Source of the DNA: an uncultured Micrococcales bacterium
GTDB taxonomy: Bacteria > Actinomycetota > Actinomycetes > Actinomycetales > Microbacteriaceae
DNA: 64,000 nucleotides
Assembly (NCBI GenBank): GCA_903880095.1
Contig: CAIRNX010000001.1
Coordinates: forward strand, 1 to 64,000
Direction: 5' to 3'
Shown here: positions 204 to 32,743 of the stretch, in pieces
Layout of the letters: the number at the start of each line of letters is the position of its first letter
Position numbering within the stretch: position 1 is the stretch's first letter
Made by a program: the position numbers and the translations under genes
The notes under the pieces: model-generated
Databases searched by the model: none
The model's input: the letters and a program-made list of their open reading frames with translations, nothing else
Told to the model about the DNA's origin: nothing

Positions 204-587
204 ATGGCTAAGTTGACTACCGACCAGCTAATCGAAGCATTCAAGGAGCTTTCGCTCATTGAGCTAAGCGAATTCGTCAAGAAGTTCGAAGAGGTCTTCG
301 AAGTAACCGCTGCTGCCCCTGTTGCCGTTGCTGCTGCTGCAGCTCCTGCTGCTGCCGGCGAAGCTGCTGAAGAGAAGGACTCATTCGACGTCGTTCTTGA
401 GGCTGCTGGCGACCAGAAGATCGCAGTTATCAAGGAAGTTCGCGCACTAACCAACCTAGGTCTTGGCGAAGCCAAGGCTGTCGTTGACGGTGCACCTGCA
501 ACCGTACTTGAGGGCGCAAACAAGGAGACCGCTGAGAAGGCAAAGGCAGCTCTAGAAGCAGCCGGCGCAAAGGTCACCCTGAAGTAA
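204..587 (+). CDS. rplL: 50S ribosomal protein L7/L12
   Basis: [45 protein letters not shown]...; typical L7/L12 hinge and C-terminal domain; SD AAGGAG upstream. Confidence 0.98.
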
Positions 588-788: not shown

Positions 789-3700
789 ATGCTCAAAAAG
801 AGCCTCTCTTTGACTTCGCGTACCCGCAAATTCGTCATCGGTATTTCTGCCGTAATCACGGCCTCGCTCGGCTTCGCGATGACCCCTCAGGTGACCTTCG
901 CCGCCACCCCAAATACCCCCTCTGACTACTACGCCACCTTCGACGGCTCAACCACCTACACCGAGAGCAACGGCGTGATCCCGACATCGGGTGACTTCAC
1001 GGTAGAGGCATGGGTTTTCGAGAACGGCAAGAACAACGGCGCTGGCGGAACAGTAATTTCACAGGGCGGTTTTTATATCGCTATGTCGCCAAGCTCTCAA
1101 GGGCTCCGCGGTGGCGACACCTGGAGCTCGCCGAGTTACACAACTAGCACCGGTCAGGTTCGCCAGATTCAGTTGCCTGCAAACCAGTGGGTGCACCTAG
1201 CGGTCACCAAGAGCGGCACCACAGGCAAGTACTTCATCAACGGCCAACAGGTTTCTACCGGAACCATTTCGAACCCAACCGCCGACGTCACGCGCATCGG
1301 GCGCATGTGGAGTACCTACTCGGAGTACTGGAAGGGTTCGATCGACGAGGTCAAGGTTTTTAATACCGACCGGTCAGCGTCGATTGCCACCGACATGAAC
1401 TCGCGCGTTGCGCCAAACACTTCGGGTCTGCTTGCCTACTGGGATTTCAACGAAGGTTCGGGAAAGACCGCGTTCAACGTGGCAACCGCCGGTGGTGGCC
1501 AGAACTCCAACATGAACATTCGTCCGCTCACCTCGAGTATCAGTTACACCGATAGCAAGACTGTGACTACTCGCGCCGGCAATACCCAGCGCAAGGTGGT
1601 TAGCTTCGCCAAGAGCTACATCACCTCGAACGGTGGTTGGGCTGTGCCAGCCGGTGTTACCAGCCTCAACGTCTTGACCGTTGGTGGCGGTGGCGGTGGC
1701 GGTGCCAACTACGGCGGTGGTGGCGGTGGAGGTGGCTTCAAGGAAGCCACATTGGCAGTCGCTCCAGGCTCGGTTCAGGCAGTAACCGTTGGCTACGGCG
1801 GCCGAGGTTCTCAGACCAACCTCAACTACTCGGCATCTGCGCAGCAGGTTGTTGAAGCCACCAATGGTGGCTCGACTGTTTTTGGTTCGCAAACGGTTGC
1901 GGGTGGTGGCTACGGTATGTCAGCCGACTTCCTGACCGTTGGCAGCGGAGCATCTGGTGGTGGTGGCACCCTAGGCAACGCTGGTGGCGCCGGAACCGCG
2001 GGTCAAGGTTTTGCGGGTGGAACTGGTGTTTCACCGACAGGTGTGAACGCCGGTGGTGGCGGTGGTGCTGGCGCTGTGGGTGACAACGGAAGTTCGTCCA
2101 TGGTTCGCGGCGGTAACGGTGGTGCCGGCAAGGTTTCAACAATCACGGGTACTTCGCTCTACTACTCCGGTGGTGGTGGTGGTGGCACGCACACTTCGGC
2201 TGGCACGTGTGGCGGAACCTCATTTGGTGGTTCTGGTGGCGGCGCTGCTGGCGGTACCTGTGTAACCGCAGCTAACTCGGTCAGCGACGGTAACGACGGC
2301 GGAGCCAACTACGGTGGCGGTGGCGGTGGTGGATCGGTTTACGCAGGCCGTGGTGCACAAGGTGGTAACGGTGGCCCAGGAATCGTCATCGTTTCATACA
2401 TCGACGCGACACCAACTGCTCCAGCTGGGCAGTGCGATTCGTACTCTTACGTAAAAAACATCGGCGGAACCAACTACACCATCGTTGAGTTTCAGCAGAC
2501 TGGCTCATGCACCTGGAACGTGCCAACAGGAGTAACCACTCTCGACATGTTGGCCGTTGGTGCCGGTGGCGGTGGCGGTAACAACGTTGGAGCCGGTGGT
2601 TCTGGCGGTGGCTCGGCTTATCGCACGGGTGTATCGATCACCGCGGGAACCGCAGTGACGGTTGTTGTTGGTGCCGGTGGTGCCGGTGGGCTCGTCAACC
2701 AGAGCGGTTCAAACGGAGGTGATTCTTCGATCAACTGGACTGGCAACTCGACCTCAACCGTTGGCGGTGGCGGTCTTGGTGGCAAGCAGATTTGGTCAAA
2801 CAACACGTGTGCCGGCGGCGGCGGTGCTGTTTACAACGCATACAGCTCGAACGGTGGCGCCGCGGGCGTTGGCGGTTCTCAGGGTGGTGCTTCGGGTGCA
2901 GGTTCGACCTCGAGCGGCGTAAACCCAACCAACGGCGCAAATGGCTACACCAACTCGATTACCGGTGATGTTCGCTGGTACGCCGGCGGTGGCGGTGGTG
3001 GAGCTTGGGGTACGACCGTTTATGGTTGGCCTGGCACCTACGGTGCACCTGGTGCTCCAACTGGTACTTCTGCGGCGGCCCTGGCTTTGGCCAACACCGG
3101 TTCTGGCGGTGGCGCCGGTGGTGACGGCTGTGGCAACGGTTCGGCAGGTGCATCGGGTACCGTCATAATCCGCTATGTGGCAACCAACACCGGAGTCGCT
3201 CTAGGTATTGACCGCAACGCAGTTGGCGCGCCTACTACTGCAGCAACCCCGCTACTGACTCAGCCAAAGGTTTCGATCAAAGACGGTTCGGGCAATGCGG
3301 TTAGCGCCGCAGGCGTAGTGGTAACGGCATCTGGCACCGGAGTCTCTGGTGTTCTAACAGCCACAACCGACTCCTCTGGCGTGGCAACGTTCAATGGCAT
3401 TCAGGTAACTTCGTCGACAACCGCAATCAACTTCAGCGCGCCAAACCTACAAGGAATCAGCCAAACCTTCGCCGGCATTGGCATCTCAGGCAACCTCACC
3501 ATCTCAACTGCCGCTTCGAGTGGTGGCTACTTCGAAAACGGTGTTTGGTTGGCGAACACCGACAACACCGCGACCACACTAAACACCACCGACCTTCAGA
3601 ATGCGCTCGCCGCGGGTGACGTCGCGCTGCCTGCAAAGGCGGCAATCGCGGTAAACAACAACATCTCGGCCTCGACGACTTGCGGAAACCTAACTTTCGC

Positions 3701-12700: not shown

Positions 12701-15700
12701 CTCGAGCAATACTTTCTCGAACACGGGCTACGCCTGGATCCAAACCTCAACATCGGCTAAGACGATCGACCTCGGTGGCGCCGATTCGGCAAGCAACCTG
12801 GGTGTCTCTAACGCGGAGCTCGCCGAATTCAGCGGTCAGAGCGCTGTGCGCGTAGGAACCATCTACTCTGGCAACGTAACCGTCACCTCAAACATTTCTA
12901 TGGCTGGCAAAACCCTTGCTGTTCGCACCGGCGGCAACTTCACCGCCAACACTGGCATCTCGATCACGGCCGCAAACCTTGCAATTTCTGCCGCCGGCAC
13001 GATCAGCATGCCAGGCAGCAATAACGTGCCTGGCAACCTCGCCATCGCAGCCAGCGGAGCCACCGCGAGCTACACGACATCGGTGAACTACACGCCAGCA
13101 ACCGTTGACTCAATCGACCCTCTCTTTGGAATCGTCAAGGATCTATCGGTGACCGGTGTTCCTTCAGGCTTAGCTGCACAGACCGAATACATCGGCGTAA
13201 ACATCACCGGCCCGCCAACTGCCACATTGCGAGACAAATACGGCAACTCACTCGACGCATACAACCTTGCGCAGTCGAACTACACAATCACCGCCACGGT
13301 TAGTGGCGGCCCAACCCTTTCAGGCACCAAGTCGAAGACCGTCTCACTCGGTTCGGCTGCCTTCAACGACCTCAAGTTCGGTACTGCTAGCGGCACCGCT
13401 CAGCTGACTTTCGCTGTAACTACCAGCGGCTCTTACCCGATTGCGGGTACCGCCAGTGTCACCACAAACAACTACACCGTTCAGTTCGGTGACCCATCTC
13501 AGCTCGTTGTTACAACCGCAGCCGGTGGCACCAAGAAGGCTGGCACCGCATTTAGCATTCAGCCGGTTATCGCCGTCAAGGATGCCGGCGGAAACGTGGT
13601 TACCTCTGGCAACGGCGTTACGGCTCGAGTTACGGCAACCGTTGCCGGAGCCAACGGCGTAATCATCGGCACCGGCTATGCAGACGCCGTCAACGGTGTT
13701 GCTACGTTCACTGGCCTCGGCCTTGGCGGAACTGTCGCAACCGACTACACAATTTCTTATGGCATCTCGATCACCGGGGCCGGCGGTAACACCATCGCTC
13801 TCTCGGTTGCCCAGTCTGCTGTTCAGCTGACCCACGGTTCACCTTCGGCACTATCGATCAACGTTTCGGCTAACGCAAAGTCCGCGGCCGCCTTGGCAAC
13901 CCAACCGGTGGTCACGGTGGTCGATGCATACGGCAACACCGCGACAACCTTCAGCGGACAAATCGTTGCTAGCGGAACCGGGCTCACCGGAACCAAGACC
14001 AAGGCTTTGGTCAACGGTGTCGCCGACTTTGCTGGTCTCGGGCTAACCCTGACCGGGACAACCGGCAACTACTCAATTGCGTTCAAGTTACAAGATTCGA
14101 CGCCTGCCGATGTTGCCGGTGTAGCCACATCGAAGAGCATCGTGCTGTCTTATGGTGCGGTAACTCAGGTTTCGGTTACCACTCCTGCCGCAGGGGCAAG
14201 TTCGCGCCAGGTCTTTGGTACTCAGCCGGTAGTTACGCTTCTCGACTCTGCTGGCAACACGGTTGCCGACTCGACTCTCGGGGTCGAAGCGGTAGTCACT
14301 GGCGCAACCCTTGGCGGCACCACTACGGTTTCGGCAGTAAGCGGCGTTGCCACGTTCACCAACCTCAAGCTCACCGGCACCTCTGGTAGCTATTCAATCG
14401 AGTACCACCTCGTACTAACCACCTCAACCAAGACAACTCAGTCGATTCAGCTCGCCTTCGGCGCTGCGACCCAGCTAAGCGTTTCTGCCCCGGCCGCTGG
14501 TTTCACAAACCGCGTTGCGTTCACGACACAGCCGATTGTTAGCGTCCTCGATGCCGACGGAAACCTAGTTTCTGACTCAAGTGCGTCGGTAACAGTCGCT
14601 TCTTCGGCCGGCAATGGCGCTGTTTTGAGCGGAACCAAGACGCTGAGCGCAGTGAACGGTTTGGTCAGCTTCAGTGCACTCAAACTCACCGGTGCGGTCG
14701 GCGCATACACGTTCACCTTCACCTCGACCGGGCTCACCCAGGCCACCCAGTCGATCACCTTGCTGCCTGGCGCTGCCACCAAGCTGGGAATCAACACGGC
14801 GGCAACGGGTGCCGTAAATGCCGTTGCCTTCACGGGTCAGCCAAAGGTTGAGGTTGAAGACGCAGACGGCAACGTCGTCACTGGCTCAAGCGCGTCGATC
14901 AGCGTTGCGCTGGTTGAGTCAACCGCTGTGCTTTCGGGCACCGCATCGGCCACTGCATCGTCTGGTATCGCAACGTTTGCGGGTCAAAAGCTGACCGGCA
15001 CGGTTGGCAACTACACCCTGCGCTACACCTCGACTGGTCTAACCTCGGTTGATGGCACTGTGACCCTCACCTTCGGCGCCGCGCATCACTTGCAGATCGA
15101 ATCCGGTGTTGCCGGTGTTACTAACCGTGTTGCTTTCACCACTCAGCCAGTGGTTAGCGTGCTCGATGTTTCGGGTAACCGAGTAACCAACGCGACAAAC
15201 GATGTAACGGTTTCGGCCTCTGCAGGCAACGGTGCAGTTTTGAGTGGCACCAAGACGGTTACACCAGCCTCGGGTCTTTCAACCTTTAGTGGCCTCAAGT
15301 TCACCGGTATGGTTGGCGACTACACGCTTAGCTACTCGGCAACAGGGCTCACTGGCGCTAGCGAGACCGTAACACTCAAGTTCGGTGCGGCAACTAAGGT
15401 CGTTGCGACCACTCCTGCCGCCGGCTTCACAAACCGAGTAGCTTTCACAACTCAACCGACGGCAAAGATTCAGGACGCCGACGGCAACGTGGTCACCGAT
15501 TCAACCGCGACCATCGCGGTGAGCGCTTCTACAGGTAACGGCGCAGTTCTAGGCGGCACCAAGTCGATCGCCGCTAGCAACGGTGTGGTCAACTTTGCGG
15601 GCCTCAAGTTCACCGGTCTGGTTGGCGACTACACGCTCACATTTGCGTCCACGGGTCTAACCAGCGACACTCAAACCCTCACCTTGCTGCCTGGCGCGGC

Positions 15701-18700
15701 AACGCACCTTGCCATTGACCAGGCAAACACCGCTTCGGTTTCGAACACCGTTGCCTTCGCTGCCCAGCCGAAGATCTCGGTTCGCGACGACGACGAAAAC
15801 GTGGTCACCGCTTCAACCGCTCAGGTCGATGTTTCGTTGGTCGGAGCCGGCGCTGTGCTAGGTGGCACGTCTTCGAAGAATGCCGTTTCTGGTGTTGCAA
15901 CCTACGCTGGCCTCAAGCTCACCGGAACCGTCGGTTCTTACACCTTGCGCTTCAGTTCAACCGGCCTAACCGGGGTCGACAGCGCAATCGCCCTAACCTT
16001 TGGTGCCGCCGATCACCTTGGCATTGAGGCCGGTGCTGCGGGAATCTCAAACCGCGTAGCATTCACAACGCAGCCGGTGATTAGCGTGCTCGACGTTTCT
16101 GGCAACCGAGTCACCAACTCGACCAACGATGTAACCGTCTCGGCCTCGGCTGGCAACGGCGCCGTCTTGAGCGGAACCAAGACAATCACGCCAGCCTCGG
16201 GTCTATCAACCTTCAGCGGCCTCAAGTTCACCGGTCTGGTTGGCGACTACACCTTGACCTACTCGGCAACCGGACTCACCGGCGCGAGCGAAACCGTGAC
16301 CCTGCGCTTCGGTGCGGCTACCCAGGTTGCAATTGCTACTCAGCCAGCTGGCGGCAACGCTGCTGGTGATGCACTCGCAACTCAGCCTGTGCTCAAGATT
16401 CAAGACGCCGACGGCAACCTTGTCACCAACTCGACCGCCACGGTGAGCGTGGGCGTAGATGCCGATGCCACGGGCAATGTGACCGAAGGCACCACCAGCG
16501 CAGCAGCGGTTGCCGGAACCGCGACTTTCAGCGGAATCAAGTTTGTAGGTACACCTGGCAAGAACTACAAGTTAGCTTTCAGCTCCACCGGTCTCACTGG
16601 GTTAAGTAGCTCGAACATCAGCGTCACGCACGCGACCGCGAGCCAGCTAGTTGTCTCAAGCATCGGCTCTGCTCGAGCCGGCATAGCCTTCGCTTCGCAG
16701 CCGACAGTCACTCTAAAAGACCGCTACGGCTACACCGTCACCTCGGGCTCGGCATCGACCGCTAACGTCACGGCAAATGCGACCACCGGCACCTTGAACG
16801 GCACCAAAGCACTGAAGCTTGTCGCCGGTGTGGCAACCTTCAGCGGCCTTTCGATTGATGGCGCAGTTGGAACCTACACGGTTACCTTCACCAGCGATGT
16901 GCCGATGTTCTCAACCAGCACGCCTGCAACTTTGACCTTCGGTGTTGCCGATCACCTGACCATCACACGCCAGCCTGTTGGCGGCAACAAGGTCGGCGAC
17001 GCTCTCACCACGCAACCGTGGGTTGAGGTTCGTGACCTCGACGGCAACCTCGTGACAGACAACACCGACCCCGTGACCTTGGCGGTTTCAAACGACACCG
17101 CCGGTTGGGTAACCGAGGGCGCCACTTCGATGGCTGCCGTTGCAGGCGTTGCCAAGTTCACCGGGGCAATCATCTCGGGTGACTCGAGCCACAACTATCG
17201 ACTCTCGTTCACCTCAGGCACAATCACCTCGGCGCTGTCGTCTGCCATCTCGCTAACTCACGCAGATGCGTCCAAGTTGGTTCTCGACACACCTGCCGCC
17301 GGCTTCAAGGTTGGGGTGGGCTTCACTACCGCGCCGTCGCTAACCCTGCGCGACCGCTACGACAACATCGTCACCACCGGGGTGAACGCGACTCGCAGCA
17401 TTGTTGTTGCGGCTAACAAGGGAACCCTGAGCGGCACCAAAACCAAGAACCTGGTTTCGGGTGCGACGACATTTAGCGACCTCAGCCTCGCGGGCGCGGT
17501 TGCCAGCGACTATTCGCTCACCTACACGGCCGGCACATTCACCGCGACCCAAACCGGGGTAACGCTCGGTTACGGCGCGGCTGATCACCTCAGCATTAAG
17601 ACGGCACCAATTGGTGGCAACAAGACCGGTGACCTTTTGGCTGGCCAACCAGAGATCAACGTCTTGGACGCGTCAAATAACGTTGTCGCTAATTCGACGG
17701 CTGATGTGACGGTTTCGGTTTACAACGATGCGACTGGCTCAATCATTGAGGGCGCAACGGTCACCGCTGCAAACGGTGTTGCCACATTCACCGGCGTGAA
17801 GCTGGTTGGCAAGCCGGGCACGAGTTACACCTTGAGGTTCAGCGCAATCGGTTTGACCGCCGTAAACGCGAGCCCGATTGCGGTCGTGCACGCCGACGCC
17901 TCGGCGCTGGTTTACGTCACTCAGCCTGTTGGTGGCAACATGACCGCGGTCAAGCTCACCACTCAGCCAGTTCTCGAACTTCAAGACCGCTTCGGTAACC
18001 GTGTAACCAGCGACAGCACTTCGACCGTCACGGCGTCGGTTGGAGTCGGCGGAGATATTTCTACGGGCCAGCAGACAGTCACGCTTGTTTCTGGTCGCGC
18101 AACATTCACCAACCTTGTTCTGATCGGCACAGCACTGCAGAATTACAAGTTTGGTTTTGCGGTTGACGGCACCTCGATTACTTCGGCTTCTTCTAACAAT
18201 GTTTCAGTAGTTCACAACATTGCCAACACGCTTGTGCTCAGTCAGGCTGCCGGCTCACGCGCTGGTGTGGCCTTCGGCACGCAACCGGTTGTGACTGTTC
18301 AAGACGCATACGGCAACACCGTTATCGACGGCTCTGGCTCGGCTGCGCTGATCACCGCGAGCGTGAACAAGGACACCCTTGTCGGAACCGTCTCGGTTCG
18401 CGCATCGGCCGGTGTTGCAACCTTCACCAACCTCGGCATCGGAGGGCTAATCGGCAGCCACACGCTTTCATTCAACATCGACACACCAACGCTTGCAGCG
18501 GCGACCCAGAGCATCACGGTTTCCTTCGGAGATGCCACTGCTCTATCGCTAACCACCTCGCCAGCGGGTGGCAATCGCACCGCAGACGACCTCGCCACTC
18601 AGCCGGTTGTGAAGGTCGTTGACGCATACGGAAACGTTGTCACCAGCTCAAGCGCAACCATTACAGCTGCTCTAGTGGCCGATGCCACCGCTGCGGTTGT

Positions 18701-21700
18701 TGCAGGCAACAGCGCAACCGCAAGCTCGGGTGTGGCAACATTCAGCGGCCTCAACCTGACCGGTAAACCAGGCGCCAACTACACCTTCAGGTTCTCTTCT
18801 GGCGCGCTAACCACGGCAACGGCGGCACCGATCACGGTTGTTCCGACCGCGGCGTCTCAGCTCTTGGTTTACGCGCAGCCTGCAGGTGGCAATGCCACTC
18901 ACGCAAACCTCACGACTCAGCCTTCGGTTGTTATCAAGGACCGCTTTGGCAACGTTGTCACCACCGATAGCTCAGCGGTGATCACCGCACGTATCTCGAA
19001 CGGAGCCGGTGGCTCTGTTGAGGGTGCCACCACGGCAACCTCAGCTGGCGGTTACGCAACATTCGTCGGTCTGAAACTCGCCGGAACCCCTGGGGTCGAC
19101 TACACGCTGAACTTCACCGCGACCATCGGGGGAGTAGACCTAACCTCAAACGACTCGAACATCTTGAACGTCGTTAACGCCGGTGCTTCGAAGGTTGTTG
19201 TCAGCCGCGCAGCAGCTGGCGCTAAGGCAGGCATCGCGTTCACCACGCAGCCGCGAGTGACGATCCAAGACGCCGACTCCAACACAGTCACCTTAGGTGC
19301 TGGTTCAACTCAGGCAGTCACAGCATCGGTTTCGGTTGGTGGCAACTTGGTCGGTAGCGCAACGGCCAACGCGGTAGCCGGTGTAGCAACCTTCACCAAC
19401 CTAGGTTTGGGCGGCGTGATTGGTGATTACACGATCACCTATTCGATTGCATCCCCGGTCGCCTCGACAACGCAGTCGATCACCCTCGGCTATGGCACCG
19501 CAACGAAGTTGGTTCTAACCACTCAGCCGGTTGGTGCGATCACAGGCGATGCCCTTTCAACCCAACCGGTGGTTGAGGTTCGCGATGGTTACGGCAACGT
19601 CGTGGCCAATTACTCTGGCACGATTGCCTCGAGCATCGACTCTGGTGTTGGTGGCACTCTCTCAGGTAACACCACCGCAAGCATCATCAATGGTGTTGCC
19701 ACCTTCGCCGGCCTCAAGTTCCAAGGCACGCCTGGCAACACCTACCGCTTCGGATTCGCCGCTGGCGTTCTCGCTGGCGACGTCAGCTCAGGTGTACAGG
19801 TTGTTCACGGCTCGGCAGTAGCAATCGAGATCGTGACTCAACCGAACGCCTTGGTTACTGGTGATGTGATGACAACGCAACCGGTGGTTCGACTCGTCGA
19901 CCGTCTTGGTTACCTGGTCACCAGCGACTCAACTACCGAAGTCACGATCAACGTCTCAACCGGTGTTGACGGTGACTTCAGCGGAACCACGACTGTCACC
20001 TTCGCAAAGGGTGTTGCCACTTTCGCAGATGTCGTGTTCACCGGCACGCCTGGAGACACATACACAGCAAACTTCTCGGCAACCCCAAACATCAAGCCGA
20101 TAATTTCACCTGACTCGAGCGCGTTCATTGTTACCCACGCAGCGGCCTCTCAGCTTGTGATTCGCACGCAACCTGCCGGTGGAGTCACCGGCGCAGTGCT
20201 CAAGGCTCAGCCAGTTATCGAACTGCAAGACCGCTTCGGCAACTTGATCGACGACGATTCGACCACGAATGTGACCATCGCTGTTGCCAGCGGTGCTGGA
20301 GGTGGCCTGACCGGCGCCAAGACCGTCACCGCAGTAAACGGTGTCGTCACCTACTCTGCGCTTAAGTTCGTTGGCCTACCAGCAAACACCTACACTTTTG
20401 GTTTTAGCTCGGGCACACTCACCGCCGTAACCTCTGGACCAATACGTGTGAGCGCTGGTGCGCCGACCAAGCTCGCCGTTGTCACAGACCCAGTTGGCGG
20501 TGCAACCGGAGACGCTCTAAGCGTTCAGCCTGCAGTGAAGCTGCTCGACTCTTACAACAACATCATCACCACGGATTCCTCGACAATTGTCACCGCGTCG
20601 ATCACCTCGGGTAGCACCGGCGGCAGCCTGAGCGGCACAGTGACCGCGACCATGGATCAGGGAGTCGCAACCTTTGCAGGCCTAAAGTTCGTCGGTACCC
20701 CTGGAACCAACTACGGTTTGGACTTCAAGTCGGGAGCACTAACCGTGGCCCGCTCTGCCTCGTTCACGGTGACGCCAAACATTGCCGAGACAATGACCTT
20801 CAAGACCCAGCCGGTCGGGGGAGTCACTGGGTCAGACCTAGCCACCCAGCCTGTGCTCGAACTTCGTGACCACTACGGCAACCTTTCGACAGGCGACAGC
20901 AGCACCGAAATTACTGCCGACGTCGTCTCGGGTGCCCGCGGAACGCTAACCAACGTGACCGCTACTGCCAAGAACGGCCTAGTCACCTTCACCAACCTCA
21001 ATTTGGTTGGCACTCCAGGCGTTGCCTACCGAATCGGTTTCACCTCGGTTTCTGGCCTAAGTCTGACCTCTCAAGACGTTGGCGTCACGCACGCCGCACC
21101 AAGCCAGCTCACTCTCAAGACCCAGCCGGTCGGTGCGATCAGCGGCGATCTGATGGGCGCAGTAGCCGTTGTAGAACTACGCGACCGCTACGGCAACCTC
21201 GCAACCTCGAACTCGAGCACCGTTGTCACCGCAAGTGTGACCTCTGGAGCTGGAGGCAGCATCACCGCAGGCGCAACGGCAACCGCCGTGAATGGTCTAG
21301 TCACATTCACCGACCTGAAGCTGACTGGTAAGCCGGGTGTCGCCTACAACCTGACCTTCTCGTCAGGCAACCTCGACGTTGCTGTTTCTGCAGACATCAC
21401 GCTCGCGAAGATCGCCGACGTAACGTTCAGCTACGGTTCGAAGGTTTTCGTCCGCGATTTGGTGGTGTCACCGACCTTCACCACCGACAGTCCAGGTGCT
21501 GTCACGTTCAGCACCAGCAGTGCCTCGACCATTTGCACGGTTGACTCGGCAACCGGCGACATCACCGTGAAGGGCACCGGCAGCTGTGTTGTAACCGCAA
21601 CCCTAGAGTCGACGAAGTACTACCTAGCCCCAGTCAACCCGCCGGCCGCAACGCTTGCTATCACCAAGAACAACCAGGCGCCTGTGCTAATCACCAGTGC

Positions 21701-24700
21701 ATCGACGGTGAACTTTGGCTCTTCGATTCAGGCAACGGCAACTGGCGGTAGCGGAAACGGCGCTTTGATGTTCAGCGTCAACGGCGACTGCCGCTTGATT
21801 GGTAACACGGTTCTCCCTGCCGATGTTGGCAGCACCTGCCAGCTAACCGCGACCCGCCTTGGCGATGCGAACTTCCAGCCCGAGTCTTCAGAAACGATGA
21901 CAATCACGGTTCGCAAAGTTGCTCAAGCACCGCTTGGTTTGGCTAACGTAACCACTGCTCCTGTCGGTCAGCTCACCATGTTCACCAAGGGAGGCAGCGG
22001 CTCCGGTGCCGTTTCTTACCGTCTTGTAGATGCTGGCACCTCGAACTGTTCGATCGCCGCAGACTACGTGGTTGCCCGCGCTGCTGGCGACTGCAAGGTT
22101 CAGGCAATCAAGGCGGCTTCAACCAACTACAACGAAGCAACTTCGGCTGAGCAGACGATCAACTTTGTGAAGCAAGACCAAAACGTAGTGTTCACGTCGG
22201 TTGTGCCTGCATACCCTGTCGCCAAGGGCACCTACGTTGTCAGCGCAACCGCCTCAAGCAAGTTGGCGGTCACTTTCTCGGTAGTTGAATCGGGCAGCGC
22301 ATCTTGCACCATCGCGGGCAGCAAGGTGACCTTCACGGCTACCGGCGACTGCGTGATTCGCGCCTCTAGCGTAGGCAACGCAGTGTTCAATGCATCCTCG
22401 ACGACTCAGGTGGTCAACGTCGGCATGTTGAACCAGCAGATCGCCTTCGACGCAATCGACGACCGCGCGTTCGGCACACCAAGCTTCATGGCGAGCGCAT
22501 CTTCAAACTCTGGTCTCGAAGTCACCTTCTCGCTCGCCGACGGTGCAGATGCCAGCGTTTGTAGCGTTTCTAGCGCCGGTCTAGTCAACCTGCTTGCCGC
22601 GGGCACCTGTGCAATCACGGCAGACCAATCAGGTAACAAGACATACACCAAGGCATCTTCTGTAACCCAGGCATTCAATGTCACCCCAGACACCGCAGGT
22701 GCTCCTTACATTTACGCTGTTTCGGCCGGCATTGGCGAAGTCACCGCAGGCTTCTCGGCTCCTTCATACCTCGGTGGCGCCCCAGCACTCGGCTACATCG
22801 TGGTTGCGAGCGATCCGAACGGTGTCGACTTCGTAAACGCGGCATGTTCGGCCGAAGACTCAACCCTCAGCTGTTCGGTTAGCGGTTTGGCAGTCGGCAC
22901 CAGCTACTCGGTTAAGGTTGCTGCGATCACTGCAGCCGGCATCGGACGCTTCTCAACCGCGTCTGTTGCGATGACTCCAACCGATAACCCACTCGCCGTC
23001 TCAAACTTGAACGCGTCGAAAGTCGATTCTTCGGTAACCGTTACCTGGACACCGCCAAAGGCGTTCGATGGTGAATTTGAGTCATACGACGTCTATCTAA
23101 CACCTCGCGGTAACGCGTTCCCTGCGGTGCCGAACGCAAAGGTGACCGATGCCAACGGCACACTAACCGTGATCGACAACATCGCACCTGCTGGCGTTCA
23201 GCGCGCGGCGGTTGTGGCGGGTTACGACGTCAAGGTGATCACGATCACAACTAAGGCACGTGGCGAAAGCAACTCAACCCAGGGCGTTTGGCTCGGGCTT
23301 GCATTGCCCGGTGCGCCTACCTCGGCACTCGCTTCGCAACTAGGCGACAACCTAGTTATTTCGTGGGCCGCGCCGCTAACCGATGGTGGTTCACCAATCA
23401 CCGCCTACAAGGTGTCGGTGAATGGTAAGTCGGTTTGCCAGACAACCAAGGTCGAAACCTGCAGCTACCAAAACGTTGATTTCTCAACCAAGTACAACGT
23501 GACCGTAACGGCAACCAACGCCCAGGGCGCCAGCGTTGCCGCAACCACCTCGGTTACTTCGGCTGCCGCACCACCAAAGCCTGAGCCTAAGCCTGAACCA
23601 AAGCCAGAGCCTAAGCCGACGCCTACCGAGGAGCCGACTCCGACTCCAACGCCAACGCCAACGGTTGAGCCGACCCCCGAGCCAACTCCTGAGCCTACGG
23701 CTACCGAAGCCCCGGCGCCTGGTGAGCCTGTCGCAAACCCTGCGATTGGCGCGACTGGTGACGACAACGCTCCGCCTGTAGCCTTCGACCCAACCGGCTC
23801 ACCTGAGGCTGTTGCTGCCGTAACCGCCACAGTTGGCAAGGTAGGCGCAGTTGCTGCTGCCGTAGCCGCTGCTGCCGGTGCGGCCGCCGCCGCAGGCGCT
23901 GCAGCGGGTGCCGCTGGTGCTGCCGGAGCAGCGGGTGGTGGTGCCGCTGGCGGTGCTGGCGGTGGCGGTGCTCGCGGAGGTTCAGCGGGTGGATCAGGTT
24001 CGGGCGGTTCAGGTTCGGGCTCCGGCGGAGGCGATGGCGGCTCGATCGCAAACATCGACGCCGAGCACGAAGAGTTCACTCTCAGCCGTCGCGGTCGTGG
24101 CGATAAGTGGAAGCTCTGGCAGAAGCGCTTCTTCACACTTATCGACAAGATCAGCGTCAGCCTGATCTTCATGTTCGCGCGCTTCTCGCCGATTCTTTCT
24201 AAGGCAACAGTTGACGGCGCATACCTGCGTGCAGCCATTGGTAGCCTTTCGGTTCTGCCAACGGCTGCTGCCGTGGTGCTTGCCGCGATCTCGATCAACC
24301 CGAGTTCGCAGCACATCTTGCCTCCGCTTTGGCCGATCTTCTTGGCAATCACACTTATCGGTGTATTCGATGCTGCAGCTGGTCTGGTCGGTACCACCGT
24401 TTACGTCCTCGGCACGGTCATCGTTCACGTCAACAACCTGCAGCTTTCAGACATTCGCCTTCTTCTAGGTATCGTCATCACCGGCTTCGGCCCAGTCCTT
24501 CTAACCAACGCGTTCCGCCAGTTCAGAAAAGACAAGGACGCCGAGAAGCACTATGTCTGGGAGCGCTTCATCGACATGGCCGTTCTTCCGTTCTTTGGTG
24601 GTTGGACGACCGCTTCGATGATTAGCACCCTGCCGGCACTTGCTGGTTTGACACTTTCGGTTGCCAACCACGTGAACGACTTCGCGCTTGCGGTTGCAGC

Positions 24701-25250
24701 TGCGACAGTCGGCCGTGTGATCCTCGAAGAAGTTGTTGCTCGCTTGTTCCCAGCTCGCCTCGATACCTTGCACCCAACCGAGGTGCCGTCGACCTACACC
24801 GGTCACCGCTACGTGGCCCTGATCAGCCGCGTCGCCATCTTCATCTTTGTTACTGCGGCTCTTATGGGTAACGCCTGGCAGGTATGGGTCGGTAGCATCT
24901 TGTTCGCTTTGCCAACCGCGCTCGGTTGGGTTTCGCACCGATGGCCAAACGTACCTTGGCTGTGGCGCATCTTGCCGCAGGGTGTTCCTGGTCTTGCGCT
25001 CGTGCTCATCGTTGCCCAGGCAACTTCAACTCTGGTCGGTTCGATCTTCGGCAAGAGCCCAGAGCTTGCCCTTTGGTCGTTCGCCTTGCTCCCGATTCCG
25101 TTGCTAATTCTGAGCGTCCTAGGAATGTTCGGCCGCGAGGGTGAAGACGGAGAAATACGTTTTGTTAAGCGCGAAAAGTTTGTTTGGGTCTATCGACTAG
25201 GTGGAGTGGTTATGCTCATTTTGACCCTCAAACTAGCCGGAGTCTTCTAG
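789..25250 (+). CDS. Giant modular surface protein (8153 aa): signal peptide, LamG-like, glycine-rich domains, beta-helix-like repeats, tandem Ig-like modules, FN3, Pro-rich linker, C-terminal polytopic membrane domain
   Basis: Single uninterrupted ORF; signal peptide MLKKSLSLTSRTRKFVIGISAVITASLGFAMTPQVTFAA; module types recognisable by eye from translated repeats; C-terminus has many hydrophobic TM-like segments. Confidence 0.95.
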   Translation: MLKKSLSLTSRTRKFVIGISAVITASLGFAMTPQVTFAATPNTPSDYYATFDGSTTYTESNGVIPTSGDFTVEAWVFENGKNNGAGGTVISQGGFYIAMSPSSQGLRGGDTWSSPSYTTSTGQVRQIQLPANQWVHLAVTKSGTTGKYFINGQQVSTGTISNPTADVTRIGRMWSTYSEYWKGSIDEVKVFNTDRSASIATDMNSRVAPNTSGLLAYWDFNEGSGKTAFNVATAGGGQNSNMNIRPLTSSISYTDSKTVTTRAGNTQRKVVSFAKSYITSNGGWAVPAGVTSLNVLTVGGGGGGGANYGGGGGGGGFKEATLAVAPGSVQAVTVGYGGRGSQTNLNYSASAQQVVEATNGGSTVFGSQTVAGGGYGMSADFLTVGSGASGGGGTLGNAGGAGTAGQGFAGGTGVSPTGVNAGGGGGAGAVGDNGSSSMVRGGNGGAGKVSTITGTSLYYSGGGGGGTHTSAGTCGGTSFGGSGGGAAGGTCVTAANSVSDGNDGGANYGGGGGGGSVYAGRGAQGGNGGPGIVIVSYIDATPTAPAGQCDSYSYVKNIGGTNYTIVEFQQTGSCTWNVPTGVTTLDMLAVGAGGGGGNNVGAGGSGGGSAYRTGVSITAGTAVTVVVGAGGAGGLVNQSGSNGGDSSINWTGNSTSTVGGGGLGGKQIWSNNTCAGGGGAVYNAYSSNGGAAGVGGSQGGASGAGSTSSGVNPTNGANGYTNSITGDVRWYAGGGGGGAWGTTVYGWPGTYGAPGAPTGTSAAALALANTGSGGGAGGDGCGNGSAGASGTVIIRYVATNTGVALGIDRNAVGAPTTAATPLLTQPKVSIKDGSGNAVSAAGVVVTASGTGVSGVLTATTDSSGVATFNGIQVTSSTTAINFSAPNLQGISQTFAGIGISGNLTISTAASSGGYFENGVWLANTDNTATTLNTTDLQNALAAGDVALPAKAAIAVNNNISASTTCGNLTFAATGSSTASISFANSVSVSTNCSGSSIFVQSATNITTGTSVTLQTAKATASTLVLWADTDRATTAGGYISFGQNTFLNTSNGATTSAQTGGGGIWVAGGAMGSDGYPSGNAFSNTAGAPGVDFNAATNSATGFRVYTGGGNLTMRGESSTFIGIRGADGTTIDSGVGSITLTGLSTTSSTANPHPIELNVQQAFPIVITSAKPSGDAITINGTSTTTATDSIPISVIGGSATNGTTFNASGANGNIVMNGVGGSASDEAMRLMNFNAYTVGGNITMDAGAKGFTWNNFNVGVASVNIGAASGSASTGTFTLKTDKLLTDTDPFNVRMAKVVVEPSGTNFSAAQTLPIPGWSFSGTTDLRFGNAAATASDITVSGFTFPGNLQIYGRTLTASGSNTITNNFDLYGTTVEISGTQMVSGVGKRFMAKATGLVRVATGGTVRTYGGLLSLWADSDSTGGGSVVLKSSANNGAFLCTTNTGLCGTATTGGGDIVLGGGAVETDTSLTDYNYRPGGWATGSTLDTETGTTSGNGAANNYNGGVYLGTADINNGSTQLYSAGGNITVRGKTNSGAMTNWSAAVPTPGGLTINSGAGKIFIDAWMAGTANGGPIEFNAWGGTTSYTSSNTADDSIKISAHSSSNVGNVWGGNAGTTFTNTSGGGFVLQADAINDNLITKYNVTGKIAFEPYGSAWYTTPNFDNDYSLVTSTPSLVRFGKAGDTGTVNFPGNLSIGAPIEIYGQWVTINGNLTNTLAGGKLLVKATQNISTSATTSGTIQTNNGPIIFWSDADKVAGTASNGGNIYIAASTTIKSQGGAITMAGGLDDGGTDSGLTTANGYMDRISGDGVPDGHAKGTTGGADSTGSDGIYLASSHLIYSAGGNIFMAGWGSSRVSPAVQETGIQSSVGTVDSGNGLLQVTGKANGTACGSHGIYVNAQGAGVGAPDVWTSANTTANAIRITGDASASTGSCNRGIVAWQYAANQGTTAYQGFRVLATGTGGGVTLNGYGANNSGNVNNDGLDLNFTDILATSGPITLNGSTPTAVGDTSAGVAIGKYANGSNTVRLGGFPAYSYTNQAGTVTNFATSSSPIVINTDRMWTQYSNIGTIFNTTSTVKILPLEQSFDQSTANGFDFANIAFASTVSSFQLGKSGTALTQSNKAIRYNSASTLAGPFTIYGGNIAVDTTVSTTGTNADITLQATGTATASGALTTSGATSNVVINGTNLSTAGVTTTTGNVTLTGTGTVTSTGAVTAAGTGSTMTASGTTMTFAAVSGNSGITITGTAAATVNGTMTTTASSAPVSVTGTSVSTATTSSAGPVTLRATTTTLGSGAITAVGDVSLTAGTTVTASAAVATTGTGSDVVATGTTMSFTTISADAGISVTGSLNATTTTLTTTGTLAPVSVSGAIVRTAGITATGNVTLTGTSTVTSTAGVSATGTGATISATGTVMDFTSLAGNAGVSVVGSSTNSISAAITTTGTLAPVTISGTTVFVVSITATGDITLTGTSTVTATGTVATTGTGKTVTSTGTALSFVAVSADAGVNLDASTTNTVTGTITTSGTLAPVTVDGTVVKTAAITSTGDVLLKSTGEIIASGAIAVSGAGEFAKLWADSDNSGSGGGGIWTKATITTNGGAIILSGGTNPLTGCARGLSTTNYIGVQIDANITSAGGDVTICGEEASAGGNIAGVALTGTVSAGAGNVSITGKLNVLNTDTSYWHAGLEMGNSAAGGNVTTTTGNITLLGTANGNTYVNHRGMLVWPMSLTSTSGSISVTGIGATGSASNNWDMQMGASGNVVSTSGPVTFNGSTATGLQFVYMSITSGTSVTMTAPKITFAATKVYGAVPVLIQPSGTAFTTDLDTDALNLSTDVTSFTIGRDKDGATAQSGGSVLLNNESLAGSTATATGNVTKIAGPIKIFADNITVGTSLENTETTVGKNNILLKATQNIVQNLSYTVKTAGGDVILWSNADGVADGNVTTSTGAITTGGGNFIVAGGATVDADGYPNGYARALDVSGRYGVQLSGPVTTSGGKVTLLGEGPGGAVNGASYGVMLDTGSSLSTGAGDILINGRTQSTNTYTSLTDGVRFGNNSTAVTITTTSGSISVTGDTSNNGTAAYRRGVIMYPLVVTTTTGSVSITGKSTNVTGGYDLWSGNTTTGTSITSTSGAITLTGNGNGTSWFEKLAISTSAQTLITANNLTWGAAAAAFNGTGPVVIEPIGTDWVPESNTTNATAAVDLSSVTVASGKSSFRVGKYNSSTSHSTKTITAPALSVAGPISIYGGDIALAATTSVTSASDNLLVKATGSIQTVATPTISTKAGDLTLWSDSDANKSGAIVLGTSTTAATVTSLGGVTTIAGGLDDGGTLVESGRTAADNRPDGWAYSTSASATTNSFENNGVTVTSNSSISSGGADIFIAGQTAESRSAAGVGLRINNGVQISASAGTVHLFGKALSATGSYVYGTLISGGSSTRAGSITTTGTQANSIVISGLVTGTSGRSCGACLNSGTSYVPTGNIVANSASGGIQILGSSPSGGATDATDIVGDGIELGKVAVLSKSGSISLNGQTTAATSNIASGLGFAHNAAWSTGQATFGAALSAYTLNSVDMTTSSANIKLNADSYAVTTAPSLKTTGTVSFSTPDGYSSNSFDKAVTMSKFTIDAGATGITVGNPGTSGADQNTAAITLDSAWSIAGPISVYGGDLTISGAQTSTLLNAKLTYKATGKIVTSAGTSAAVPFVLRTNKGDLTLWSNAAGTATNGSIFVDKYNYLDTTNGTGTSMTTGGGRITLAGGLNADLNGVPTGYATSDTAADGAAGVALGTATTGGGTGWLKMYSGGGDITIRGSSSQAKGILAPSGYDINSGEGAIVIDGKSTGTTAAYNGEGVELVYGATVNAASSIVSAKASATAISITGSSAATGSFGVINNNWSTSLISTIAATGGGDLVIKGTGPTDGQFKYSNILANGGNITFDMSTNGAVFANSKIGSAASTAVTADSGNITYDGDKYTGASSNTFSNTGYAWIQTSTSAKTIDLGGADSASNLGVSNAELAEFSGQSAVRVGTIYSGNVTVTSNISMAGKTLAVRTGGNFTANTGISITAANLAISAAGTISMPGSNNVPGNLAIAASGATASYTTSVNYTPATVDSIDPLFGIVKDLSVTGVPSGLAAQTEYIGVNITGPPTATLRDKYGNSLDAYNLAQSNYTITATVSGGPTLSGTKSKTVSLGSAAFNDLKFGTASGTAQLTFAVTTSGSYPIAGTASVTTNNYTVQFGDPSQLVVTTAAGGTKKAGTAFSIQPVIAVKDAGGNVVTSGNGVTARVTATVAGANGVIIGTGYADAVNGVATFTGLGLGGTVATDYTISYGISITGAGGNTIALSVAQSAVQLTHGSPSALSINVSANAKSAAALATQPVVTVVDAYGNTATTFSGQIVASGTGLTGTKTKALVNGVADFAGLGLTLTGTTGNYSIAFKLQDSTPADVAGVATSKSIVLSYGAVTQVSVTTPAAGASSRQVFGTQPVVTLLDSAGNTVADSTLGVEAVVTGATLGGTTTVSAVSGVATFTNLKLTGTSGSYSIEYHLVLTTSTKTTQSIQLAFGAATQLSVSAPAAGFTNRVAFTTQPIVSVLDADGNLVSDSSASVTVASSAGNGAVLSGTKTLSAVNGLVSFSALKLTGAVGAYTFTFTSTGLTQATQSITLLPGAATKLGINTAATGAVNAVAFTGQPKVEVEDADGNVVTGSSASISVALVESTAVLSGTASATASSGIATFAGQKLTGTVGNYTLRYTSTGLTSVDGTVTLTFGAAHHLQIESGVAGVTNRVAFTTQPVVSVLDVSGNRVTNATNDVTVSASAGNGAVLSGTKTVTPASGLSTFSGLKFTGMVGDYTLSYSATGLTGASETVTLKFGAATKVVATTPAAGFTNRVAFTTQPTAKIQDADGNVVTDSTATIAVSASTGNGAVLGGTKSIAASNGVVNFAGLKFTGLVGDYTLTFASTGLTSDTQTLTLLPGAATHLAIDQANTASVSNTVAFAAQPKISVRDDDENVVTASTAQVDVSLVGAGAVLGGTSSKNAVSGVATYAGLKLTGTVGSYTLRFSSTGLTGVDSAIALTFGAADHLGIEAGAAGISNRVAFTTQPVISVLDVSGNRVTNSTNDVTVSASAGNGAVLSGTKTITPASGLSTFSGLKFTGLVGDYTLTYSATGLTGASETVTLRFGAATQVAIATQPAGGNAAGDALATQPVLKIQDADGNLVTNSTATVSVGVDADATGNVTEGTTSAAAVAGTATFSGIKFVGTPGKNYKLAFSSTGLTGLSSSNISVTHATASQLVVSSIGSARAGIAFASQPTVTLKDRYGYTVTSGSASTANVTANATTGTLNGTKALKLVAGVATFSGLSIDGAVGTYTVTFTSDVPMFSTSTPATLTFGVADHLTITRQPVGGNKVGDALTTQPWVEVRDLDGNLVTDNTDPVTLAVSNDTAGWVTEGATSMAAVAGVAKFTGAIISGDSSHNYRLSFTSGTITSALSSAISLTHADASKLVLDTPAAGFKVGVGFTTAPSLTLRDRYDNIVTTGVNATRSIVVAANKGTLSGTKTKNLVSGATTFSDLSLAGAVASDYSLTYTAGTFTATQTGVTLGYGAADHLSIKTAPIGGNKTGDLLAGQPEINVLDASNNVVANSTADVTVSVYNDATGSIIEGATVTAANGVATFTGVKLVGKPGTSYTLRFSAIGLTAVNASPIAVVHADASALVYVTQPVGGNMTAVKLTTQPVLELQDRFGNRVTSDSTSTVTASVGVGGDISTGQQTVTLVSGRATFTNLVLIGTALQNYKFGFAVDGTSITSASSNNVSVVHNIANTLVLSQAAGSRAGVAFGTQPVVTVQDAYGNTVIDGSGSAALITASVNKDTLVGTVSVRASAGVATFTNLGIGGLIGSHTLSFNIDTPTLAAATQSITVSFGDATALSLTTSPAGGNRTADDLATQPVVKVVDAYGNVVTSSSATITAALVADATAAVVAGNSATASSGVATFSGLNLTGKPGANYTFRFSSGALTTATAAPITVVPTAASQLLVYAQPAGGNATHANLTTQPSVVIKDRFGNVVTTDSSAVITARISNGAGGSVEGATTATSAGGYATFVGLKLAGTPGVDYTLNFTATIGGVDLTSNDSNILNVVNAGASKVVVSRAAAGAKAGIAFTTQPRVTIQDADSNTVTLGAGSTQAVTASVSVGGNLVGSATANAVAGVATFTNLGLGGVIGDYTITYSIASPVASTTQSITLGYGTATKLVLTTQPVGAITGDALSTQPVVEVRDGYGNVVANYSGTIASSIDSGVGGTLSGNTTASIINGVATFAGLKFQGTPGNTYRFGFAAGVLAGDVSSGVQVVHGSAVAIEIVTQPNALVTGDVMTTQPVVRLVDRLGYLVTSDSTTEVTINVSTGVDGDFSGTTTVTFAKGVATFADVVFTGTPGDTYTANFSATPNIKPIISPDSSAFIVTHAAASQLVIRTQPAGGVTGAVLKAQPVIELQDRFGNLIDDDSTTNVTIAVASGAGGGLTGAKTVTAVNGVVTYSALKFVGLPANTYTFGFSSGTLTAVTSGPIRVSAGAPTKLAVVTDPVGGATGDALSVQPAVKLLDSYNNIITTDSSTIVTASITSGSTGGSLSGTVTATMDQGVATFAGLKFVGTPGTNYGLDFKSGALTVARSASFTVTPNIAETMTFKTQPVGGVTGSDLATQPVLELRDHYGNLSTGDSSTEITADVVSGARGTLTNVTATAKNGLVTFTNLNLVGTPGVAYRIGFTSVSGLSLTSQDVGVTHAAPSQLTLKTQPVGAISGDLMGAVAVVELRDRYGNLATSNSSTVVTASVTSGAGGSITAGATATAVNGLVTFTDLKLTGKPGVAYNLTFSSGNLDVAVSADITLAKIADVTFSYGSKVFVRDLVVSPTFTTDSPGAVTFSTSSASTICTVDSATGDITVKGTGSCVVTATLESTKYYLAPVNPPAATLAITKNNQAPVLITSASTVNFGSSIQATATGGSGNGALMFSVNGDCRLIGNTVLPADVGSTCQLTATRLGDANFQPESSETMTITVRKVAQAPLGLANVTTAPVGQLTMFTKGGSGSGAVSYRLVDAGTSNCSIAADYVVARAAGDCKVQAIKAASTNYNEATSAEQTINFVKQDQNVVFTSVVPAYPVAKGTYVVSATASSKLAVTFSVVESGSASCTIAGSKVTFTATGDCVIRASSVGNAVFNASSTTQVVNVGMLNQQIAFDAIDDRAFGTPSFMASASSNSGLEVTFSLADGADASVCSVSSAGLVNLLAAGTCAITADQSGNKTYTKASSVTQAFNVTPDTAGAPYIYAVSAGIGEVTAGFSAPSYLGGAPALGYIVVASDPNGVDFVNAACSAEDSTLSCSVSGLAVGTSYSVKVAAITAAGIGRFSTASVAMTPTDNPLAVSNLNASKVDSSVTVTWTPPKAFDGEFESYDVYLTPRGNAFPAVPNAKVTDANGTLTVIDNIAPAGVQRAAVVAGYDVKVITITTKARGESNSTQGVWLGLALPGAPTSALASQLGDNLVISWAAPLTDGGSPITAYKVSVNGKSVCQTTKVETCSYQNVDFSTKYNVTVTATNAQGASVAATTSVTSAAAPPKPEPKPEPKPEPKPTPTEEPTPTPTPTPTVEPTPEPTPEPTATEAPAPGEPVANPAIGATGDDNAPPVAFDPTGSPEAVAAVTATVGKVGAVAAAVAAAAGAAAAAGAAAGAAGAAGAAGGGAAGGAGGGGARGGSAGGSGSGGSGSGSGGGDGGSIANIDAEHEEFTLSRRGRGDKWKLWQKRFFTLIDKISVSLIFMFARFSPILSKATVDGAYLRAAIGSLSVLPTAAAVVLAAISINPSSQHILPPLWPIFLAITLIGVFDAAAGLVGTTVYVLGTVIVHVNNLQLSDIRLLLGIVITGFGPVLLTNAFRQFRKDKDAEKHYVWERFIDMAVLPFFGGWTTASMISTLPALAGLTLSVANHVNDFALAVAAATVGRVILEEVVARLFPARLDTLHPTEVPSTYTGHRYVALISRVAIFIFVTAALMGNAWQVWVGSILFALPTALGWVSHRWPNVPWLWRILPQGVPGLALVLIVAQATSTLVGSIFGKSPELALWSFALLPIPLLILSVLGMFGREGEDGEIRFVKREKFVWVYRLGGVVMLILTLKLAGVF
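1596..3180 (+). repeat. Two glycine-rich (poly-Gly) domains in tandem within the giant CDS
   Basis: Copy 1 starts WAVPAGVTSLNVLTVGGGGGGG and ends GGPGIVIVSYI; copy 2 starts WNVPTGVTTLDMLAVGAGGGGG and ends ASGTVIIRYV. Confidence 0.85.
3861..12100 (+). repeat. About seven large degenerate repeats (about 1.0-1.27 kb each) marked by an LW(A/S)(D/N)(S/A)D motif, within the giant CDS
   Basis: Motif starts at 3861, 5037, 6036, 8505, 9573, 10647 and 11919; each is followed by GGxIxxAGG-type segments and most units contain an AGPIxIYGGxI-like segment. Confidence 0.75.
7230..8470 (+). repeat. Thr/Gly-rich tandem repeat, 82-aa (246-bp) period, about 4-5 copies, within the giant CDS
   Basis: LAPV(S/T)(V/I)SG... 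landmark codons at 7875, 8121 and 8367, exactly 246 bp apart; an earlier divergent copy SAPVSVTG at about 7572. Confidence 0.8.
13140..21410 (+). repeat. Array of about 25 tandem Ig-like modules of about 100-108 aa within the giant CDS
   Basis: Recurring pattern xLxTQPVVxVxDxxGNxVTxSxxxVTxSxxxGxxxLxGTxTxxxxxGVATFxGLxLTGxxGxYTLxFxSxGLxxxxxxxxxxxGAAxxL. Confidence 0.85.
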
Positions 25251-25681
25251 TGGCCCAATTCAAGCAAAAGCGCAAGCGCAGGCGCGACACCAAGCGTGTA
25301 GCGCGCATCGTTGCGATTCTTGTAGTTTTCGGCCTAATCGCCGCCTTCTTTATTGGCACCATCGGCACGATTGGTGCGCAAGCCGCAACGCTAACCTGCG
25401 TTCAAGACGTTGACGCCGATGGTCAGCTGAATGCCGTAGACCCAGACATCGATGGTGACGGCATTGTGAATGGCGAAGACGACGACATTGACGGCGACGG
25501 CATCAGCAACTTCAAAGACCAAGATCCAGCCGCCACAAACTGCACCACCGATTCGCCACTGCCGATCAAGCCAACCGTGGTCGATAATTCGGTAACTCTT
25601 TATGTAGGTCTGACAGCCGCCGGCATTGCAATTGCTGCTCCAGCCGCCTACCTCTATGCCAGAAAGAGAAAACGCCAGTGA
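25250..25681 (+). CDS. Small membrane protein with thrombospondin type-3-like Ca-binding repeats
   Basis: GTG start at 25250 overlapping the TAG stop of the giant gene (TAGTG), in frame with listed ORF 25184..25681; KRKRRR + N-terminal TM, VDADGQLNAVDPDIDGDGIVNGEDDDIDGDGISNFKDQDP, C-terminal TM + RKRKRQ. Confidence 0.8.
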   Translation: MAQFKQKRKRRRDTKRVARIVAILVVFGLIAAFFIGTIGTIGAQAATLTCVQDVDADGQLNAVDPDIDGDGIVNGEDDDIDGDGISNFKDQDPAATNCTTDSPLPIKPTVVDNSVTLYVGLTAAGIAIAAPAAYLYARKRKRQ

Positions 25682-31867: not shown

Positions 31868-32743
31868 ATGGCTTTGATAATCGACCCGCGCATCGTCAAA
31901 CTGACCACGCGCACAGAGGTCGATATCAAGCGCAACCTTCCTCATGCATACCTGCGCCGAATCGGTGCTTGGGTTTTCTTAGATCACTTTGGGCCAACCG
32001 CCCGGGTTGACGGCATGGTCGTGGCGGCTCACCCGCACACCGGCCTGCAGACTGTTACATGGCCTTTTGCCGGCAAGGTTGATCACCGCGACAGCATTGG
32101 TTCGAAACAGCTAATCGAGCCGGGCCAACTAAACCTGATGACTGCCGGCAAGGGCATTGCCCACAGCGAAAAGTCGCTGGCTGGGCCAAGCGCTCTTCAC
32201 TCGGTGCAACTCTGGGTGGCTTTGCCAGAAGCCGTGCGCGACATGGAGCCAACGTTTGAGCATCTAGGTAACCCGCCAGCGCTTAGCCTCGAAGGCCTTG
32301 AGGCCGTCGTCTTTATCGGTTCACTCGGAGCTGTCGAATCACCAGCCAAAGTCTTCTCGCCGCTCGTGGGCGCCGAACTCAAGGTCACTGGCTTGGCCAA
32401 GGTGCCGATCAACAAGGCTTGGGAGCACGGCGTGCTTGTAATCGAAGGTTCAGCGCTCATAAATGGGGAACAGGTAGAAAAAGATCAACTCATTTTCTTG
32501 CCAGCTGGTGAAGGTGCCCTTGAGGTGTCTGGCGATTCGAGGTTGCTGCTGATTGGCGGCGAACCTTTCGAAGAGCCAATCGTGATGTGGTGGAACTTCA
32601 TCGCACGCACATCAGACGAAATCCTTGCAATGCGCGAAACCTGGAACTCGCAAGACGAAAGCTATGGCAAGTTTGATGACGAAGTCGGTGGCTGGATTCC
32701 TGCGCCCGAGCTGCCTAACGTGACCCTGAGGCCGCGCGTTTAG
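31868..32743 (+). CDS. Pirin-family protein
   Basis: GAWVFLDHFGPTARVDGMVVAAHPHTGLQTVTWPFAGKVDHRDSIGSKQLIEPGQLNLMTAGKGIAHSE. Confidence 0.92.
   Translation: MALIIDPRIVKLTTRTEVDIKRNLPHAYLRRIGAWVFLDHFGPTARVDGMVVAAHPHTGLQTVTWPFAGKVDHRDSIGSKQLIEPGQLNLMTAGKGIAHSEKSLAGPSALHSVQLWVALPEAVRDMEPTFEHLGNPPALSLEGLEAVVFIGSLGAVESPAKVFSPLVGAELKVTGLAKVPINKAWEHGVLVIEGSALINGEQVEKDQLIFLPAGEGALEVSGDSRLLLIGGEPFEEPIVMWWNFIARTSDEILAMRETWNSQDESYGKFDDEVGGWIPAPELPNVTLRPRV

Follow-up and report, generated by a model that had tools for sequence, protein, structure and literature searches.

The window analysed here, a stretch of 64,000 nucleotides, carries a single gene whose 8153-aa product is probably a fibrillar stalk on the cell surface that most likely acts as an adhesin, with a new polytopic membrane anchor and a dedicated partner protein. 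The architecture of the protein, its conservation, the selection acting on it, its coupling to the partner gene and the modular reuse of its anchor are observed directly. What is new is the anchor together with the coupled partner. Being a giant adhesin is not, with precedents in giant adhesins built of Ig domains (PMC10619420) and, among small genomes, in giant proteins with solenoids (PMC12863079). The features of the locus are as follows.

204..587, + strand: rplL, ribosomal protein L7/L12, upstream neighbour of the giant gene (Pfam Ribosomal_L12)
789..25250, + strand: giant surface protein gene, 8153 aa, a single ATG-to-TAG ORF (stop TAG at 25248-25250)
789..902, + strand: signal peptide, aa 1-38 (MLKKSL...FA), read from the sequence
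945..1379, + strand: LamG/ConA-like domain, aa 53-197, putative ligand-binding tip (Pfam Laminin_G_3, E=3.3e-20)
1626..3176, + strand: two glycine-rich domains (Pfam Gly_rich_2), the second at aa 571-796, the start of the first approximate
3189..3485, + strand: single Ig-like module, aa 801-899, of the same family as the tandem array (module profile)
3633..12710, + strand: beta-solenoid of seven ~340-aa mega-repeats, aa 949-3974 (repeats, EtpA match, model)
13131..21410, + strand: 26 tandem Ig-like modules of ~105 aa each, aa 4115-6874 (module profile)
21411..22700, + strand: five Cys-pair Ig-like modules, aa 6875-7304 (sequence; weak Big_3_5 match, E=0.0036)
22701..23570, + strand: three FN3 modules (Pfam fn3, E=4.4e-24, three stretches)
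23571..23723, + strand: P/E/K/T-rich linker (PEPKPEPKPTP...), from the sequence
23724..24083, + strand: juxtamembrane motif NPAIGATGDDNAPPxxFDPxGSPE, Ala-rich first helix and Gly/Ser linker (alignment A1)
24084..25247, + strand: polytopic C-terminal anchor domain, ~390 aa with ~ten hydrophobic helices (hydropathy, alignment, model)
25250..25681, + strand: coupled partner gene, 143 aa, whose GTG start shares 1 nt with the TAG of the giant gene

Most of these parts had been named in an earlier note on this DNA. Its signal peptide, LamG-like domain, two poly-Gly domains, beta-helix-like mega-repeats, Cys-pair and FN3 modules, PEPKPEPKPTP linker with Ala/Gly tract and polytopic membrane C-terminus were all recovered. 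The Ig-like array is real as well, but the count of about 25 becomes 27 once the module at aa 801-899 is added to the 26 in tandem. Absent from that reading were the partner gene at 25250-25681, the fixed place of the giant gene behind rplL and the C-terminus as a separately distributed anchor family. The Laminin_G_3 fold lies at the N-terminus, distal to the anchor, and its ligand binding is putative; it was detected only when the segment was scanned alone, the whole-protein Pfam and NCBIfam searches missing it. A short region of Thr/Gly-rich repeats (aa 2058-2498) breaks up the beta-solenoid. Against the PDB, the Ig module profile found only Runt domains (E=0.015), a match judged to be due to chance. 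The P/E/K/T-rich linker is a probable wall-crossing spacer, and the conserved motif NPAIGATGDDNAPP lies between it and the Ala-rich helix.

The giant frame is not a chance ORF, since the other five frames of 789-25250 contain 211-537 stops each, their longest open run being 480 aa. The gene is repetitive and its source genome (1,435,215 bases) is split into 42 contigs; moreover, a relative (G036:C30) is frameshifted before its anchor, so that one might suspect an artefact of annotation or assembly, with the ORF chimeric or collapsed, or a gene in decay. Such an explanation is hardly credible. An independently assembled second species (G007) encodes a collinear copy with 85% identity over ~6700 aa, and dN/dS between the two copies is 0.12 over 7148 codons, indicating purifying selection. 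Relatives of 7968 aa (G001) and 10947 aa (G006) with the same C-terminus are present in complete one-contig genomes, and another relative (G058) has an open frame of 12006 aa. Thus, both the integrity of the uninterrupted ORF and its maintenance by selection, as proposed in the earlier note, are confirmed. By region, dN/dS ranges from 0.07 to 0.11 across the Ig array and is 0.10 for the C-terminal domain, values that are only approximate toward the 3′ end because synonymous sites are near saturation there. At window positions 6960-8282, corresponding to aa 2058-2498, dS relative to G007 falls to 0.013, close to identity at synonymous sites, versus 0.4-2.0 in the flanks, suggesting recent recombination or gene conversion between species inside the stalk.

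Conservation of the gene does not extend to all members of the genus. Among the 22 genus genomes with completeness of at least 90%, the Ig array is present in 7 and absent in 15. At the same locus, one genome (L130; G026:C1:1122206-1123990) has a 595-aa frame in which the signal peptide and a partial Gly-rich domain are joined to an FN3-TSP3 end, either because the stalk was lost in frame in nature or because the assembly collapsed here. The many high-quality genomes devoid of an Ig-array giant and this stalkless version show that the stalk is a dispensable, accessory trait.

The solenoid assignment is based on a sequence profile and a predicted model. Searched against the PDB, the profile of the ~340-aa repeat matched only EtpA (E=7.6e-16, five stretches), and the model of the repeat is all-beta (pLDDT 87.6, pTM 0.91). 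Foldseek placed mostly parallel beta-helices on top (pectate lyase-like proteins, EtpA, L. reuteri SRRP), none of them at E<=0.001. If the solenoid has the geometry of EtpA, in which ~54 coils span 25 nm (PMC11463764), and each Ig module adds 3.5-4.5 nm, the total stalk length can be estimated at ~190-260 nm. The cell volume of Rhodoluna lacicola is ~0.05 cubic micrometres (PMC4156110). The stalk may reach about half the cell diameter. One such stalk takes up 1.7% of the streamlined 1.4-Mb genome of a plankter, an investment in conflict with the idea that streamlined cells minimise their surface outlay.

The C-terminus of the protein has a distribution of its own. The last ~390 aa recur in 38 of the 67 genus genomes, frequently more than once per genome, and in 11 of the 250 genomes of the family, the genus itself counted in; they also occur, attached to ectodomains of unrelated kinds, in further classes of Actinomycetota. 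Alignment A1 of 25 relatives has a mean column identity of 53%, and eleven positions are invariant across 17 diverse anchors (G132, S161, D170, R175, G179, D222, G226, R271, G388, P424 and G500 in A1 numbering). Pfam searches with the 25 relatives returned chance matches only, phmmer against the PDB gave one chance match (E=0.056), and Foldseek with the anchor model, which is itself of moderate quality (pLDDT 76.6, from 25 sequences), found no fold match in the PDB (best E=0.53, TM <=0.26). No match was found in the plasmid sequences searched. At the search depth available, this C-terminus is a previously uncatalogued conserved domain family. The domain terminates otherwise differing ectodomains of 1 to 12 kaa, and in other classes (L104, L105, L106, L108) it forms the end of secreted proteins that have S/T-rich linkers. 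In L107 (G802:C6, locus 9367-12177), the domain sits at the N-terminus with no signal peptide, and an NHL propeller follows its last helix. This reuse on differing ectodomains, together with the N-terminal placement, argues that the polytopic domain is apparently a general surface-display anchor. A second family member (L111; G036:C30:5215-12149) is split by a frameshift into a 1934-aa ectodomain and a 410-aa anchor, which makes it a pseudogene or a sequencing error.

Basic loops, the arrangement of L107 and the hydrophobic first helices of L104 and L105 fit a topology in which the conserved core is N-in, C-out, with nine spanning helices and a re-entrant segment at 209-240. In an alternative topology, where the Ala-rich helix does not span the membrane, most loops are also satisfied. 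Two identities were tried and rejected. The first is a CPBP (CAAX/Abi) intramembrane protease, for which the EExxxR motif and then the FxxxH and HxxxN/D motifs were tested: an EExxxR-like string at A1 positions 341-346 is not kept in distant members, the downstream His is not conserved, and there is no Pfam match. The second is sortase anchoring. Two sortases are encoded in the genome of the window (G000:C28:121759-122121 and G000:C16:19929-20330), but no LPxTG sorting signal occurs in all 8153 aa of the giant. Nor does the giant contain a known Pfam surface anchor; the polytopic domain stands in its place.

In the partner protein, a hydrophobic segment at the N-terminus is followed by three TSP3-like Asp repeats, a C-terminal membrane helix and a basic tail. 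Its DxDxDG repeats (25406-25540) have a spaced Asp pattern that is invariant among the members of the group; the TSP_3 profile matches all 7 members weakly (best E=5e-4), with the copy in the window below the cut-off. A profile of the partner matches 21 of the 67 genus genomes. In 17 genomes it adjoins anchor-family genes, downstream in 14, where it lies within ~85 bases of the family C-terminus, and directly upstream in three (G001, G006 and G011, the family gene of the last being cut by the contig end). Partner gene and Ig array occur together in 14 of the 67 genomes, the array alone in 1, the partner alone in 7 and neither in 45, so that 14 of the 15 Ig-array genomes also carry the partner (Fisher p=1.6e-8, an optimistic value because related species are treated as independent). 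The stalk encoded in the complete genome G002 is 6456 aa long and contains 26 Ig modules; it has no polytopic domain and terminates instead with TSP3 repeats and one membrane helix, a natural fusion that ties the partner to the stalk base; the partner sequence is also found inside the short derivative of the stalk gene in G026. Judging from its sequence, the partner would be a calcium-binding-type membrane protein co-expressed with the giant.

Conceivably, the polytopic domain does more than anchor the protein and is an active membrane device fused to the stalk, such as a self-export aid, an ion-coupled motor or a tip-binding sensor. Four of the long-range invariant residues (D170, R175, D222, R271) lie in or beside helices, the ~ten conserved helices would seem to exceed the needs of a plain anchor, and one genome (L110; G758:C39:821-3934) encodes two tandem stand-alone copies of ~500 aa with Ala/Arg-Ala-Gly-rich N-termini and no ectodomain. 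Yet the domain shows neither a catalytic nor a transporter signature and matches no Pfam family or PDB fold, no conserved neighbouring signalling gene was found, and in G002 a TSP3-plus-single-helix tail takes its place, all of which makes an active device improbable. A broader version, in which the domain would be a phylum-level device of Actinomycetota that exports, energises or senses via fused stalks, with the TSP3 protein as its calcium-dependent regulator, appears quite doubtful too; if true, it would define a new class of surface-display system instead of a passive anchor. As an anchor, the polytopic domain offers a concrete case of what may be a new anchor class, and its partner is open to testing. 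Since R. lacicola takes up DNA by natural transformation and its genes can be replaced (PMC11577799), questions about stalk, anchor and partner can be tested.

The distal parts of the giants are far more changeable. Other giants have 4-14 solenoid repeats and 26-60 Ig modules of the same type; counted over the complete giants, the module number is 27-60. Their N-terminal domains vary (two syntenic relatives have GLEYA, others Gly_rich_2 or further domains), suggesting variable tips on one common chassis. Smaller anchor-family members (2-3.4 kaa) have neither solenoid nor Ig stalks and contain Big_12 and other modules instead. Near the giant of G006 lies a gene (L035; G006:C1:1295272-1301715) for a 2147-aa surface-type protein with FN3-like modules, the C-terminus of which does not belong to the polytopic family.

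Because the tips are of lectin type, adhesion is the most economical function, and we infer both adhesion and a ligand. LamG and GLEYA occur in non-adhesive proteins too. The stalk-like adhesin proposed in the earlier note is consistent with the anatomy (lectin-like LamG/GLEYA tips, solenoid-Ig stalk, linker and membrane C-terminus) and with the selection, its adhesive role staying conditional; for the other proposal made there, a cell-surface organiser, no specific support was found. A rather unlikely alternative is that the stalk protects the cell as a coat or spacer, against grazing or phage or as floc matrix, and has no specific ligand, its tips being decoys or subject to antigenic variation. 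Such a coat would agree with tips and repeat numbers that vary strongly above a conserved anchor, with the patchy distribution of giants among species and with the free-living planktonic habit of the organism (PMC4156110). However, the distal end holds recognisable lectin-type folds, and a single polytopic-anchored chain would seem costly for a coat. In the preferred reading, as an adhesin, the chain would be exported by Sec through the signal peptide, expose its LamG-like, Gly-rich N-terminus as the tip of the solenoid and Ig-module stalk, cross the wall with its P/E/T linker and be held in the cell membrane by the polytopic domain, which would replace sortase linkage. The TSP3-repeat membrane protein may cooperate with the base of the stalk, for instance by stiffening it in a calcium-dependent manner or by assisting assembly, and the planktonic ultramicrobacterium could attach to particles, algae, polysaccharide or other cells.

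Among known systems, the giant resembles fibrillar adhesins and FA-like proteins in having tandem stalk domains, C-terminal attachment and a distal domain that is putatively of adhesive type (PMC8286594). Its 26 Ig modules, seven solenoid repeats and three FN3 modules form a stalk as in that class, which admits several attachment modes, so that the lack of a known anchor limits only the type of anchor; the giant differs in that its anchor is a polytopic domain missing from Pfam. About half of FA-like proteins have no known anchor, and novel anchors were predicted (PMC8286594). The giant adhesin of Mobiluncus mulieris (7651 aa, 51 Ig-like domains) is likewise an Actinomycetota protein with an Ig-like stalk encoded by one giant gene, but it has an LPxTG sortase anchor and cross-linked Ig domains, and the parts of its description consulted mention neither beta-solenoid nor polytopic anchor (PMC10619420). 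Apilactobacillus kunkeei, with a 1.5-Mb genome, encodes Giant1-5, surface proteins of 3000-8000 aa and ~0.2 um with a solenoid near the N-terminus; unlike the giant described here, they have SH3b-like wall attachment and no transmembrane domains, and the stalks of Giant1-3 are alpha-helical repeats (PMC12863079). EtpA, the match of the mega-repeat profile, belongs to the TpsA two-partner exoproteins (8vba; PMC11463764), whereas the giant is a Gram-positive protein without TPS context in which the solenoid is an internal stalk segment; no TPS secretion domain was seen at its N-terminus, where an ordinary signal peptide and LamG are found. RTX adhesins share the long tandem beta-sandwich extender but are Gram-negative outer-membrane proteins with calcium within the extender itself, so that their calcium stiffening is only an analogy for the TSP3 partner (PMC7493085).

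The host can be placed in the Rhodoluna group of freshwater Microbacteriaceae by inference from its relatives, which in the same searches carry the labels Rhodoluna sp. or Microbacteriaceae/Micrococcales; the Rhodoluna literature searched does not mention the giant gene. The gene starts 202 bases behind rplL. A terminator scan found a terminator-like hairpin at 615-628 between the two genes, which makes a separate promoter for the giant gene at ~640-788 probable; no sigma-70-type site was found. Elsewhere in the window, two minus-strand genes (32740-33849, 369 aa; 47525-48568, 347 aa) have no Pfam match at the limits used. The giant gene is followed by a small ORF and by Ser_hydrolase, saccharopine dehydrogenase-like and GMC oxidoreductase-like genes, in this order. 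The same order recurs downstream of the giant genes in G007, G040, G041 and G055, partly in G058, and its first genes also in G002, G026 and G038; the locus has a fixed position in the genus. A second locus of anchor-family genes adjoins a conserved putative lipoprotein gene in five genomes (G001, G006, G025, G041, G021).
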